A stretch of DNA of 64,000 bases from Chlorobiaceae bacterium. Lineage in GTDB: Bacteria; Bacteroidota; Chlorobiia; Chlorobiales; Chlorobiaceae. Under the pieces are notes generated by a model. It was not told where the DNA came from and searched no databases. It worked only from the letters and a program-made list of their open reading frames with translations. Below, one piece after another: positions 42,572-48,888 of the stretch (positions are counted from its first letter, which is position 1; each line of letters opens with the position of its first letter). The translations under genes were made by a program, and so were the position numbers. The DNA is taken from the NCBI GenBank assembly GCA_013334965.1, contig JAAXWO010000008.1, positions 62,001-126,000 on the forward strand, written 5' to 3'.

Positions 42572-43777
42572 ATGAGCAAGGAAAAAATTGCGATCGCCTA
42601 TTCCGGCGGTCTCGACACCTCAGTCATGATCAAGTGGCTGAAAGACAAATACCAGGGCGCAGATATCGTCGCCGTCACTGGCAACCTCGGTCAGACCAAG
42701 GAGATCGAAAACCTTGAATCCAAAGCCATTGCGACCGGAGCCTCCTCTTTCCATTTCGTCGACCTCCGCAAGCAGTTCGTCGAAGAGTACATCTGGAGGG
42801 CACTCAAGGCAGGCGCTCTCTATGAAGACGTCTACCCGCTCGCCACGGCGCTGGGCCGTCCGTTGCTCGCCAAGGCGCTTGTCGATGTCGCCCTCGAAGA
42901 GGGTTGCACGATGCTTGCCCACGGCTGCACCGGCAAAGGCAACGACCAGGTGCGTTTCGAGGTGACCTTCGCTTCCCTCGCCCCGCAGCTTAAGGTGCTC
43001 GCTCCGCTTCGCGAATGGGAGTTCACCTCGCGTGAAGCTGAAATCGCCTATGCAATGGAACACAACATCCCCGTATCGGCGACCAAAAAGAGCCCTTACT
43101 CAATCGATGAGAACATCTGGGGCATCAGCATCGAGTGCGGCGTTCTCGAAGATCCCATGGTTGCTCCTCCGGAAGATGCCTTCCAGATCACCGTTTCGCC
43201 TGAAAAGGCCCCGGACAAACCTACCGTTGTCGACATCGAGTTCATCGAAGGCGTTCCTGTGGCGCTTGACGGACGGCAGATGAGCGGCCTCGACATGATC
43301 GTCAGGCTCAACGAGCTCGGCGCAATGAACGGCGTCGGACGTCTCGACATGGTTGAAAACCGCGTCGTAGGCATCAAGTCAAGGGAGATCTACGAAGCTC
43401 CGGCAGCCACGATCCTTCACTTCGCCCATCGCGAACTCGAAAGGCTTACGCTTGAGAAATCGGTGTTCCAGTACAAAAAGAACATCAGCCAGGACTATGC
43501 GAACATCATCTACAACGGCACCTGGTTCTCGCCGATGCGCAACGCCCTCGACGCATTCGTCAACGAAACGCAGAAACCGGTAACCGGTCTTGTAAGGATC
43601 AAGCTCTACAAGGGTTCGATGTCACTGCTGGGCAGGAATTCACCGAACTCCCTCTACAACGAGGAACTCGCGACCTACACCGAAGCCGATACCTTCAACC
43701 ACAAAGCGGCCGCAGGGTTTATCCACATCTATGGCCTCGGCGTAAAAACCTTCAATCAGGTCAACGCAGGGAAATAA
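42572..43777 (+). CDS. argG: Argininosuccinate synthase
   Basis: 401 residues. The PP-loop [15 protein letters not shown] at residues 9-23 and the conserved [15 protein letters not shown] identify it. It joins citrulline and aspartate with ATP. Last gene of the first arginine operon; a strong terminator follows 34 bases later. Confidence 0.97.
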
Positions 43778-43810
43778 GAACCGCGTTGCCTTGATGCCTC
43801 AAACAGAAAA

Positions 43811-43846
43811 AGCCGTCCCGGCGTGAAAACCGGGACGGCTTTTTTT
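43811..43846 (+). terminator. Terminator after argG
   Basis: A perfect 11-bp GC-rich stem (43811-43821 with 43830-43840), eight-base loop and a T run to 43847. Confidence 0.92.
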
Positions 43847-43888
43847 CATACAGATCGACTTGAAACCGCTCGTGCGACGAGGAATCGC

Positions 43889-44221
43889 TCATCTATTGAT
43901 GATGATGACATCTCCACGAGGCGGAGGCGGAGGAGGAGCATACCGCCTATACTGTCTGTTCTTGAGCCTCTGCCGATCGAGTTTTACCTCCTCCTGATAA
44001 AGCCTCAGTCGCTCCTGCTCAGTCTTCTCCTGCTCCCGCCTGATTTTGGCATCTTCCTGCAGCTCAAGCTTTTCCATGTTCTGATCATGCTGGCGCTGCT
44101 GGATGTCCAGCTGCTCCTGGTCCTTCTGGCGCCAGAATTCAGCATCGGCATAGGATGCCTGCGTCGTAACGGCCATCATGCCGACAAATGCCGCGAAAGG
44201 TAATATGCCCAGCTTCTTCAT
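43889..44221 (-). CDS. Exported charged coiled-coil protein, unknown function
   Basis: 110 residues from ATG 44221 (MKKLGILPFAAFVGMM, signal peptide ending around SYADA). The frame is open to 44281 but the upstream part is not signal-like. Mature part is a run rich in Q, E, R, K and D (about residues 28-90, predicted coiled coil), then PPPPPP and a hydrophobic end DVIIINR. Not recognised. Last gene of a four-gene exported block on the minus strand. Confidence 0.75.
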   Translation of the reverse strand: MKKLGILPFAAFVGMMAVTTQASYADAEFWRQKDQEQLDIQQRQHDQNMEKLELQEDAKIRREQEKTEQERLRLYQEEVKLDRQRLKNRQYRRYAPPPPPPRGDVIIINR

Positions 44222-44270
44222 CGTTGTTCCCCCCGAAAATAATGTTAATGGTTGATGCCGCCCATACTCC

Positions 44271-44891
44271 TTAAACACCAAGCCCGTCTGCGGCCTTTTG
44301 CGCGTTCGATACGTCCACGTTGTTGGCAGAGAGGTATTTGAACAATTTTCCGGTCGTGGATACGGACGTGGATACGACAGCCGGGAGATTATTTATCAGG
44401 TAGAGCACACCGGGGGCGTCGAAGATTCCGATCGCTTTCACGTCGATTCTCGAAAGTGAACCCACCAGTTTAGAGGTCCTTGAAACCGCGATCGCATATC
44501 TGAGGGCGCCTTCGGTCGCGAGTCTCTTCTGGTGATCGTCCAGGGGACGGTTCTCCTCCATGATATGATTGAGGCTCTCGTCCAGTTCCCTGCCCATTCT
44601 TGCCTTTTCCTCGTTCGAGGCCTTTTTGGCATCTCCGTTCTGCACGAAATCGATCGTCGCCTGTCTGGCAGCCAACTCCTCTTTACCGGCGATTGCCTGA
44701 ATAAGAAGAACTTGTGCGTCAAGGTAAAGATCGAGAGCGACGCTGCAATCGAAAACGACCTGCCTGACGTTTGATCGGTCGCCACTGCTACCGGTCACCT
44801 GAAGAATACCGGACAAGCCCGGAAATGCCATGGCACTCTGTTGCGGGATGAACAACGAACAGAGAATGATCGGCAAATATCTTGATTTCAT
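44271..44891 (-). CDS. Exported protein of unknown function
   Basis: 206 residues. Signal peptide ends AMAF (about residue 22). The mature part is mainly helical, with one Cys (FDCSVALDLYLDAQVLLIQA) and a Val/Ser-rich region near the end (NLPAVVSTSVSTTGKLF). No recognised family. Spacing 29 bases to the upstream gene and 49 to the next. Confidence 0.8.
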   Translation of the reverse strand: MKSRYLPIILCSLFIPQQSAMAFPGLSGILQVTGSSGDRSNVRQVVFDCSVALDLYLDAQVLLIQAIAGKEELAARQATIDFVQNGDAKKASNEEKARMGRELDESLNHIMEENRPLDDHQKRLATEGALRYAIAVSRTSKLVGSLSRIDVKAIGIFDAPGVLYLINNLPAVVSTSVSTTGKLFKYLSANNVDVSNAQKAADGLGV

Positions 44892-44920
44892 GTGCTTACT
44901 CCCGTTAATTCTCCTGTTGG

Positions 44921-45697
44921 TTATCGGACGCCCTTGGCATTCAGTTGCTCAGTGAGAGTAATGGCGGTTTCCTTTGCTGCGATGATCAATGCATTACGGC
45001 TTGCGACGCTCTGGTCGGGCCCAAGGCCGGAAAACTGGATCGGCCCAACAGACCCGATTTTCCTGGGTATCATCGGGTAAATGTCCCACAATTGGGCACG
45101 AACAGAAACATAGACCCGCTTGTTTCCGGTAACGGGGTCGACGTCGTTGAGGCCGATATCGATGGTGCCGACTGCGAAATAGCGAACATTGCACTTCCTG
45201 GCTGCCGAAAAGACCTTGCTCCTGACCTGTGCGCTCATATCATCGGTCGTGGCGAACGCGGATTGGATCACCTTCGGGTCAGGACCTCCTCCGTTGATCA
45301 TGACATCCTCATATGCGCCATACTCAATCCCTGCATTGGTCAGAACCTCACCCATTGCCGCGTCGATATCCTGTGAGCTTGTCACTGAATATCTGACCTC
45401 ATCCTCTTTCCTTACCGTGGTGCCGCCAATGGTGACCCGCTGCTTGCCCGTTACGAGCCCCACCCTTCCCGGTGCCGTATTCACCTGCTCCCTGAAGTCG
45501 GTCCTGGTGTCGTCATGCTGAATGACCGAAGAGGTTTTCCGGGCAAGAAACAGGAAAGAAAACAGTGACCCTTCAGACCTCATCGGCATACCCACGGACG
45601 GCGGGGTGCCCCGGTCATCATAATAGGGATCTCCAGCAAAGGCCTGGTTTCCGAAGGCCATAGCCATACTCAGGATCAGCAGTGATTTGTACCTCAT
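44921..45697 (-). CDS. Exported protein resembling CsgG/FlgT-type domains
   Basis: 258 residues. Signal peptide ends QAFA (residue 21). A segment in the second half, KCNVRYFAVGTIDIGLNDVD then VYVSVRAQLWDI, resembles the assembly-ATPase-independent CsgG/FlgT-like fold in which a conserved G-T beta strand is followed by a strand of V-V-R-x-W/D type. The similarity is weak and by eye. Fifteen bases after the gene at 45713 on the same strand. Unknown function; likely periplasmic or outer-membrane associated. Confidence 0.75.
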   Translation of the reverse strand: MRYKSLLILSMAMAFGNQAFAGDPYYDDRGTPPSVGMPMRSEGSLFSFLFLARKTSSVIQHDDTRTDFREQVNTAPGRVGLVTGKQRVTIGGTTVRKEDEVRYSVTSSQDIDAAMGEVLTNAGIEYGAYEDVMINGGGPDPKVIQSAFATTDDMSAQVRSKVFSAARKCNVRYFAVGTIDIGLNDVDPVTGNKRVYVSVRAQLWDIYPMIPRKIGSVGPIQFSGLGPDQSVASRNALIIAAKETAITLTEQLNAKGVR

Positions 45698-45712
45698 ACT
45701 CTGCTCGCTTTT

Positions 45713-46942
45713 TTATTTTAATTGACCAAAAATTCTGGATGCGTCCCGGAAAACTCCTTCAGCTTCGGCCCCTCTTGAGGCTGACTCCTTCAACCAGCGG
45801 GCATCGGGCCCGGAAAACTGTTTCGAAGTTTCGTCTATCAGTGCGAATGTCGTTTTCCTGTACTGCGGCCAATCATCGATCCTGGGATTGTATCTCTTTG
45901 CGAGAGTGATGATCTGGGTGTTGTAGATATTCTCATTGAGAACGGTAGCGGAGGCGGAGACATCCGTCATTTTTATGGTTCCCAATACCCTGTAGATCTT
46001 CTGCCAGGAGCTCTGCTCTTCGACTGTGGTCCCCCGGAACGCCCTGACGGTAAAATCGACCGTAAAATCAGGAGACGGAAGATTCAGGCTGAAGGTGTTC
46101 CCGTCTGCGAATCTCATCGGCATGACCCTGCCGACAGCTTCGCCGGGGCTCCAGGGAACGATAGGCACGCTGTTGTTCGTGGCGATCGACGTTTCGAGTT
46201 CATTGGCAAGCAGATTGGCAAAAGCCCTGGGATTGATACGCTCATCATTGAGTTTTGTCAAGGCTTCCGGTTCGAAATCGATATGTTTGACCTGAAGGTG
46301 TTTGTTGTAATAATCCCTGATCTTCAGCTCGGCAAATCTGTCCAGCCACAGATCGAATGGATTGATACCGAGATTATTGGTGAGGTAGATTGTCCGGAAC
46401 AACTCAAGAACCTCACTCTCTGTCAATCTGCCCCTGACGATCTCGGAATATTTAAGTCGGACAGGATATGCTGCGATCAACTGTTTCGTCTTCCGGTCGA
46501 AAGCCAGGACGTTGAAGTTCAGGCGCAGATACATGACGAGCTGGTCCTGAAGCTCTATATATTCGATGTTTTCATAGGAAAGGGCAAAAGCCACGGTTAC
46601 CTGGCTACCCCGACCCAACCTGCCAAGGTCGGTACTCAACCGGGCATCCAGGTCAGGACGTGATTTTATTTTTTCGTTGAATACCTTGTTCAGCAATGGT
46701 TGGCCGTTGGCATCCCTGATCTGCTCAACCCTGGCGCTATAGGGATAGAGATCATTGCGATTTTCATAATTGCCCGAAAACGCAAAGCCCGCAAAAAGAA
46801 GCTTTTCATCAGCTTGACCCAGTCGTGGCATCAGCATGACGAAAAGCATTGATGCTGTCGTTATGGCGGCAAATGGAAAATGAATGCTTTTGAATAAGCG
46901 ATGCGAACGATGGCCGGCAAGGTAGAAAATCTTTCTTTGCAT
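45713..46942 (-). CDS. Large exported protein of unknown function, first of the block
   Basis: 409 residues from ATG 46942; an open frame extends to 46972. A long basic start precedes a hydrophobic segment (ITTASMLFVMLMPRLGQA), a signal peptide or anchor. The mature part has mixed strands and helices with no Cys or known motif. Stretches such as DLGRLGRGSQVTVAFALSYE and DPHLQVKHIDF-like segments look like periplasmic mixed-fold modules. Not recognised. It heads the four-gene block lying between argG and argH. Confidence 0.75.
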   Translation of the reverse strand: MQRKIFYLAGHRSHRLFKSIHFPFAAITTASMLFVMLMPRLGQADEKLLFAGFAFSGNYENRNDLYPYSARVEQIRDANGQPLLNKVFNEKIKSRPDLDARLSTDLGRLGRGSQVTVAFALSYENIEYIELQDQLVMYLRLNFNVLAFDRKTKQLIAAYPVRLKYSEIVRGRLTESEVLELFRTIYLTNNLGINPFDLWLDRFAELKIRDYYNKHLQVKHIDFEPEALTKLNDERINPRAFANLLANELETSIATNNSVPIVPWSPGEAVGRVMPMRFADGNTFSLNLPSPDFTVDFTVRAFRGTTVEEQSSWQKIYRVLGTIKMTDVSASATVLNENIYNTQIITLAKRYNPRIDDWPQYRKTTFALIDETSKQFSGPDARWLKESASRGAEAEGVFRDASRIFGQLK

Positions 46943-47499
46943 AATGATCGAACAAATAAGCGTGACAATCACAAGAAAGGTGACATGCAGGGGCGGGACT
47001 ATAAATACTGCACGTACTACTGATACAGATCACAAAAAAAAGCATCAACTGAAGTAATCAAGTACTACCTGTAATTGTAGCTATAATCCATGTAATATTC
47101 AAACACCATAGTCTCCGACAACCCCTCCTGCCGACCTGAACACCTCCCATAACAATGCGCTATTTCTTTATCCTGAATGTATCTGACACCTGCCGACGGC
47201 ATTGAAGCCCTCGATAGATATGCCTATATGTTTTATATACACAGCATCCGCATACAACATCAGCTCCTGACAAAGACAGATACACACTCATATACTTTTC
47301 TGATAGGGAGCGTAATCGTGTGTCGAACGTTATGATATCTTGGGCTTGCGCTTTATTACTTAAAGATCTTTGCTGCCTTATAAAAGAAAACGAAAGATCA
47401 CGTACGGATGGAGTTCGTGATTTGCTGATTGTATTATGTATCTTCCAGCAAAAGTTTCAAGGGCCGGGCCCGTGCAACCAATCAATCCATCAGCGTACC
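46943..47499. other. Divergent intergenic region before argH
   Basis: About 557 bases between the exported block and argH. A reading frame runs from 47320 into argH without a stop, but its residues are not argH-like and it has no clear RBS. No ARG box near consensus was found. It should hold promoters for both directions. Confidence 0.5.
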
Positions 47500-48888
47500 A
47501 TGTCCAAAAACAAGGAACTCCTCTGGCAAAGCCGGTTTTCGCAGCCATTCGACCAGGAAGCTCTCCGTTTTTCATCATCTGTCCACGTCGACGGGCTTCT
47601 TTACCGTGAAGACATCCAGGGCTCGATCGCCCATGCGACCATGCTGGCCGAAGAGGGCATTATTTCAACAGAAGAGTCTGTCGAGATTGTCCGCGGCCTG
47701 AAAGCCGTCGAAGAGGAACTCACATCGGGAGCACTCGTCCCGGTCTGGGAAGACGAGGATATTCATACGGTCATAGAGAACCGTCTCAAGGAGCTGATCG
47801 GGCCTGCTGCCGGGAAGCTTCACTCCGGAAGGAGCAGGAACGACCAGGTGGCTACAGACACTCGCCTCTACCTGCGAAAGAACATCGACAACATGCTCGT
47901 TCAGCTCGGACTGATGCAGTCGACGCTTCTGGAAAAAGCTGAACGGTACCGTAAAACCATCATGTTCGGCTATACGCACATGCAGCGAGCCCAGCCGATG
48001 TCTGCCGGCCACTATTACATGGCCTGGCACTCGATGTTCGGGCGTGACGCCAGCCGACTTTCCGATCTCAGGAAAAGAGCCAACGTCTCCCCTCTCGGCG
48101 CTGCAGCATTCGCAGGAAGCACCTTACCCCTGAATACGGCTCGTTCAGCCGAGCTTCTCGGATTCGAAGCGGTATTCACCAACAGTATAGACGCCGTCAG
48201 CGACAGGGATCTGGTCATCGAGTTCGTCTCGGCCTGTTCGGTCATCATGATGCACCTTTCGAGGTTTTCCGAGGATGTCATCCTCTGGAGTACGGCCGAG
48301 TTCAACTACCTTGAAATAAGCGACGCTTTCGCTACCGGCTCATCCATCATGCCGCAGAAAAAGAATGCCGACATCGCCGAACTGGTAAGAGGAAAAACCG
48401 GAAGGGTGTACGGCAATCTCATGAACCTTCTGACCATCATGAAGGGGCTTCCGCTCTCCTACAACCGGGACATGCAGGAAGACAAACCTCCTCTTTTCGA
48501 CACGGCTGAAACCACTGCACAGAGCCTTTCGATCTTCAGGAGAATGATTGAAAACACATGGCTTAACGAAGAACACCTGGCAAAACTGACTGCCGAGGAC
48601 CTGAGCCTTGCCACAGAAATCGCTGAATACCTGGTAAAAAAACAGATACCGTTCCGCGATGCACACAGGATAACCGGCAAAATCGTAGCCTATGCGCTTG
48701 AGCAGGGTAAAACCCTTCCGACCATCAGCCTCGATGAGTACCTCACCTTCTCCGACGCTTTCGGCCAGGATATCTATGACGACCTGAAACCCGATGCGAG
48801 CGTCAACTCCAAGAAAACCGCAGGAAGCTGTTCATTCCGTTCTGTCGAGGAACAGATCGCCAGCGCCAAGAACGCCGTAAACAAATAA
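47500..48888 (+). CDS. argH: Argininosuccinate lyase
   Basis: 462 residues from ATG 47500 ([20 protein letters not shown]). Fumarase/aspartase superfamily signature [19 protein letters not shown] with the catalytic Ser; [17 protein letters not shown] and YTHMQRAQP are also visible. It splits argininosuccinate to arginine and fumarate, last step of the pathway. Separated from argG by 3.7 kb of unrelated genes on the other strand. Confidence 0.96.

Follow-up and report, generated by a model that had tools for sequence, protein, structure and literature searches.

Within the 64,000-nt stretch of Chlorobiaceae DNA analysed here (the window), four genes for exported proteins separate argG from argH. 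Do these genes form a functional unit, does their place among arginine genes say anything about their role, and what could their products build? The original prediction saw an unrecognised block that might form an envelope structure or secretion complex in this lineage.

Genes, export signals and constraint

The block's first gene P1 (45713..46942, 409 aa), followed by P2 (44921..45697, 258 aa), P3 (44271..44891, 206 aa) and P4 (43889..44221, 110 aa), lies between argG (42572-43777) and argH (47500-48888). All four genes are on the minus strand and separated by gaps of 15, 29 and 49 bp, i.e., coordinates and spacing are as predicted. P1 and P3 represent undescribed families. The N-termini of all four proteins show a hydrophobic stretch and then a plausible cleavage site for signal peptidase I (GQA/DEK, AFA/GDP, AMA/FPG and SYA/DAE for P1, P2, P3 and P4, respectively), which makes the four predicted signal peptides plausible, and no lipobox was found in P1-P4; both calls come from a simple heuristic, not a dedicated predictor. 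The block holds no evident membrane anchor, pore, lipoprotein or substrate gene.

Between the convergent argG and P4 lies a perfect inverted repeat of 15 bp (43807..43844), which contains A/T runs and is a probable bidirectional terminator. At the other end, the divergent P1/argH region of 557 bp (46943..47499) likely holds the promoters of both genes. The count of promoter-like matches across the whole region 43700-47600 (8 vs. 4.3 +/- 1.9 expected) is not decisive.

We compared the block with its orthologues in a second Chlorobiaceae genome (G028, locus L012), to which P1-P4 are 74-84% identical. The dN/dS ratios are 0.10, 0.06, 0.06 and 0.14 for P1, P2, P3 and P4, compared with 0.04-0.05 for argG and argH in the same comparison; all ratios are rough, with synonymous sites near saturation. 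Judged by these low values, P1-P4 are real, constrained genes, and all four are intact and under strong purifying selection.

Searches of P1-P4 against Pfam, NCBIfam, PADLOC and PHROGs gave nothing above the curated or chance level; the weak low-complexity matches of P4 stayed below the cut-off. No catalytic family was found among these profiles, in accordance with the predicted lack of a recognised catalytic motif, nor did a match to any known family of established function turn up, which would have spoken against the original prediction. PDB sequence profiles returned nothing convincing for P1, P2 or P3, the best row being a short match of P2 to a transcriptional regulator (E 0.018). A defence or phage origin of the block was dismissed, given zero PADLOC or PHROGs matches.

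Genomic location and distribution

With regard to the arginine setting, we classified the argG-argH spacing by hand in 61 Chlorobiaceae genomes. The two genes are less than 1 kb apart in about 25 genomes and some 2-36 kb apart on one contig in 14, among them the two genomes that carry the block in this gap. In G030, whose argG (96% identity) makes it the nearest of the block-free relatives, the gap measures 265 bp. Reading twelve of the intervals (L073-L084) revealed unrelated cargo across genomes, i.e., PAS/GAF histidine kinases, a CHAT-TPR ATPase, a catalase-peroxidase, an AMP-ligase, an EcoO109I-type restriction enzyme, YdbH-like genes and RND-efflux genes. That is, the argG-argH gap (43778-47499 in the window) is an insertion hotspot across Chlorobiaceae. 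No clear direct repeats bounding an insertion were found in the window's interval.

The location is thus uninformative and the block's arginine setting incidental. An arginine-related role was discarded, since the gap holds unrelated cargo in relatives and the block is found elsewhere in a second genus. The interruption of the arg genes, on which the original prediction had remarked, is real, but insertions here are frequent across the family, and the synteny comparison proposed there yielded no arginine meaning. More generally, the hotspot calls for caution when function is inferred from this location.

Two further observations concern the same interval. In one relative (L079, 1745-4505), the gap contains genes for two small exported proteins and, after them, a YdbH-like gene of intermembrane phospholipid transport. 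In five block-free loci (L040, L042, L043, L044 and L045), TTGATAGTTGATAATGGATAA-like motifs flank the argG terminator in inverted orientation and are perhaps a small repeat element.

Within the family, P2 was found in 11/61 and P3 in 8/61 genomes, and P1-P2-P3-P4 occur in the same order in exactly the eight P3-bearing ones. In one of these (G039, locus L025), an antisense ORF takes the place of P2 in the ORF list, and the P2 match was found in the 61-genome search; P3 and P4 of G028 were located during the dN/dS comparison. A search of the phylum for P1 (148 genomes) matched family members only. In the P2 tree, the block copies of Chlorobiaceae form one clade (100/100). The block's genomic location differs between the two genera that carry it, which points to either transfer or differential loss.

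Beyond the phylum, P1-P2-P3 occur in the same order in Hellea (Alphaproteobacteria) as well as in Caballeronia and Cupriavidus metallidurans, where they lie on large replicons. Separate profile searches with P1 and P2 in the same 398 genomes matched 7 and 6 genomes, respectively, six of which are shared: Hellea and five further Pseudomonadota with P1-P2-P3. In the seventh P1 genome, the gene between P1 and P3 encodes 296 aa and gave no match to P2. That separate searches recover the same genomes and the same order is strong evidence that P1-P3 work together. By gene order and similarity, P1-P2-P3 is a co-conserved cassette in two phyla; an absence of co-conservation, which would have counted against the original prediction, was looked for and not observed.

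P2 fold, its neighbours and possible roles

The AlphaFold model of P2 was built on five sequences and has a mean pLDDT of 58. It is best over residues 108-258, with a pLDDT of 66-83 per 10-residue block over residues 111-258. Its top PDB rows nearly all belong to one fold class (TolB_N/CsgG/FlgT-M/LpoB), i.e., the TolB N-terminal domain (Z 10.3, 3.1 A, 126 residues), FlgT (Z 9.8, 3.7 A, 150 residues), CsgG (Z 9.3, 4.1 A, 140 residues), PelC (Z 8.9) and LpoB (Z 7.2), with HpaA and XCC0632 also among the best matches. Since Z values up to 1 apart were counted as ties, P2 is placed in the class and nearest to no single member. Taken together, model, Foldseek, VIA and alignment delimit a TolB_N/FlgT-M/CsgG-type domain at residues ~41-258, and the P2 core is predicted, with moderate model confidence, to have the TolB_N/FlgT-middle/CsgG/PelC/LpoB fold.

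The predicted resemblance of one protein to CsgG/FlgT-type domains is thereby borne out at the level of the modelled fold. At the sequence level, neither Pfam (E <= 1) nor PDB profiles nor profile-profile comparison matched P2 to CsgG or FlgT, such that the suggested CsgG/FlgT/LpoB/TolB profile search on its own came back empty. The profile-profile comparison, which covered P1, P2 and the CsgG-type fourth gene described below, rests on shallow alignments and gave no signal.

The first strand of the P2 fold is followed by a conserved insertion (residues ~61-107, about 45377-45517 in the window), in which a Gly-Gly pair is invariant. This region, examined for transmembrane beta-hairpins like the two per subunit that form the CsgG pore, was modelled with a pLDDT below 50. 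The insertion is longer in the proteobacterial forms.

CsgG and TolB_N share one Pfam clan (PMC3173608). At the outer membrane, PelC assembles into rings of 12 subunits (PMC12141448) and PqiC/XCC0632 into octameric ones (PMC10897342), and FlgT is part of the H-ring (PMC7693769). No oligomerisation is known for TolB (PMC3173608); ring formation is not shared by all proteins of this fold.

Less can be read from the other three proteins. The P1 model (pLDDT 45) is too poor for use and its structural matches are not significant. P1 as a relative of the flagellar P-ring was also considered and dropped, since the weak match (E 1.1) was gone with a wider alignment. P3 is probably helical, judging from its residues. 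P4 comprises a Pro-rich stretch, a conserved C-terminus (VIIINR in this genome, YIIVEP in the other genus) and a helix-like stretch of 68 residues free of Gly and Pro, 60% of which are E/K/R/Q. A coiled coil, as originally predicted, is unproven, because the hydrophobic residues lack heptad periodicity (7 vs. 7.2 in shuffles), such that only the charged helix-like stretch stands. Copies outside the Chlorobiaceae showed no P4. In the second genus, P4 is followed by a small gene with a lipoprotein-like product (L022 9245-9625; L025 5762-6163; L026 10071-10472), which is DUF3192 in L026 and perhaps a fifth operon member there.

The copies of the two phyla also differ in P2 itself and in what adjoins it. 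Proteobacterial P2 copies have an extra N-terminal domain of ~110 residues, which has no Pfam match and is lacking in Chlorobium P2; as a working hypothesis, it would dock on the neighbouring protein. In Cupriavidus and loci L059-L063, the fourth gene is of CsgG type with a lipoprotein-like N-terminus by eye, and those of L059-L063 are related to the Cupriavidus one. Caballeronia has a TolB_N/LpoB-like gene (sub-threshold score) upstream of the cassette, and the fourth gene of Hellea encodes a 282-aa exported protein with no Pfam match. The Chlorobium block has no adjoining CsgG-type gene and P4 in its place. Searching with PF03783, no CsgG-family gene was found anywhere in 5/8 block genomes, this genome included.

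The other three P2-bearing Chlorobiaceae (G010, G032 and G043) hold a distinct P2 clade without P1 and P3. Here, P2 is followed by CsgG-type genes in G010 and G032, with DUF6844 also present in G010, and by one weakly scoring CsgG/FlgT-like gene in G043. Clusters of this second lineage with CsgG-like and FlgT-like genes are found at L028 (3117-8051, also carrying the DUF6844 gene), L027 (3-4425) and L029 (6736-8791). Our literature search found no paper on DUF6844 and none useful on CsgG in Chlorobium.

Given these observations, we lean slightly towards reading the block as a small operon whose four exported products would assemble into a periplasmic, outer-membrane-facing complex around the TolB_N-fold P2. 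The operon would be horizontally mobile or repeatedly lost. P2 would be the likely scaffold, probably oligomeric, with P1 and P3 as constant partners. In Proteobacteria, the product of the CsgG-type gene that usually adjoins the cassette, often lipoprotein-like, may anchor the complex, while the Chlorobium version has P4 with its charged helix instead of the extra P2 domain plus CsgG-type gene. A role in envelope assembly or export, with a substrate and an anchoring partner, is what we infer for such a complex. Of the predicted lineage envelope structure or secretion complex, the exported, co-conserved unit stands; it is not limited to this lineage, given its presence in Pseudomonadota, and the complex itself is conjectural. 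The more specific proposal that P1-P2-P3 make up the core of an envelope apparatus not described before, i.e., a CsgG/FlgT-fold periplasmic ring without CsgG pore or flagellum, we hold to be possible rather than probable. In either form, the fold is one that recurs in outer-membrane rings and exporters, and the three-gene cassette, unnamed in Pfam/NCBIfam and found in two phyla, is a defined target for direct interaction tests.

An unlikely alternative is a true secretion complex, in which P2 forms a PelC/CsgG-like ring exporting a fibre or polysaccharide through an outer-membrane pore encoded elsewhere. The fold matches to PelC and CsgG are consistent with it, as are the CsgG-type gene beside the proteobacterial cassette and the CsgG-like, FlgT-like and DUF6844 genes next to the related P2 lineage of other Chlorobiaceae. 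Five of the eight block genomes, however, are without a CsgG-family gene, and the block has neither a lipobox nor a substrate-like gene.

We consider it even less probable that the proteins are monomeric periplasmic regulators tuning a cell-wall or outer-membrane enzyme in the manner of LpoB or TolB. Both share the P2 fold (Z 7.2 and 10.3) and act by binding partners, e.g., LpoB binds and activates PBP1b. On the other hand, the lipoprotein nature of LpoB and the beta-propeller of TolB are both missing from the block; in addition, its patchy spread (8/61 family genomes) speaks against a core role in the cell wall.

That the block is what remains, decayed and functionless, of a FlgOPT module of the flagellar H-ring type is very improbable and largely refuted by the dN/dS values of four intact genes under strong purifying selection. 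FlgT does rank with the best matches to the entire P2 domain, and Chlorobium P2 has lost or never had the N-terminal domain seen in related P2 proteins, but FlgI (PF02119, the sole flagellar gene searched) is absent from this genome while found in three controls, and no flagellar gene was recognised beside the cassette in relatives among the ORFs scanned.

Comparison with known systems

We finally relate the complex proposed around P2 to systems that share its fold. The middle domain of FlgT from the Vibrio H-ring (PDB 3w1e, 8z5n) resembles P2 residues 41-258 in its predicted fold, and a domain preceding the middle domain is also present in the long P2 forms. In contrast to FlgT, P2 has no PF16538/PF16539 match and ends with the TolB_N-type domain, and its partners P1 and P3 are not known from flagella. 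CsgG (PF03783; PDB 4uv2, 6lqh) shares the fold of its periplasmic domain, and CsgG-type genes lie beside related clusters. P2, however, shows no PF03783 match and no lipobox, and the block contains no further curli-type genes.

The outer-membrane rings of PelC and PqiC (XCC0632) are likewise similar in fold to P2, but they are made of lipoproteins with PelB or PqiB as partners, neither of which is present in the block. The N-terminal domain of TolB (PF04052) as well as LpoB (PF13036) are periplasmic and of the P2 fold, while P2 has no beta-propeller, lipobox or Pfam match. A further comparison is with the P2 cluster of other Chlorobiaceae (G010 and G032, partly G043), whose P2 is homologous at ~30-40% identity; it differs in having CsgG-type and, in G010, DUF6844 proteins instead of P1 and P3, and its P2 forms a separate clade.
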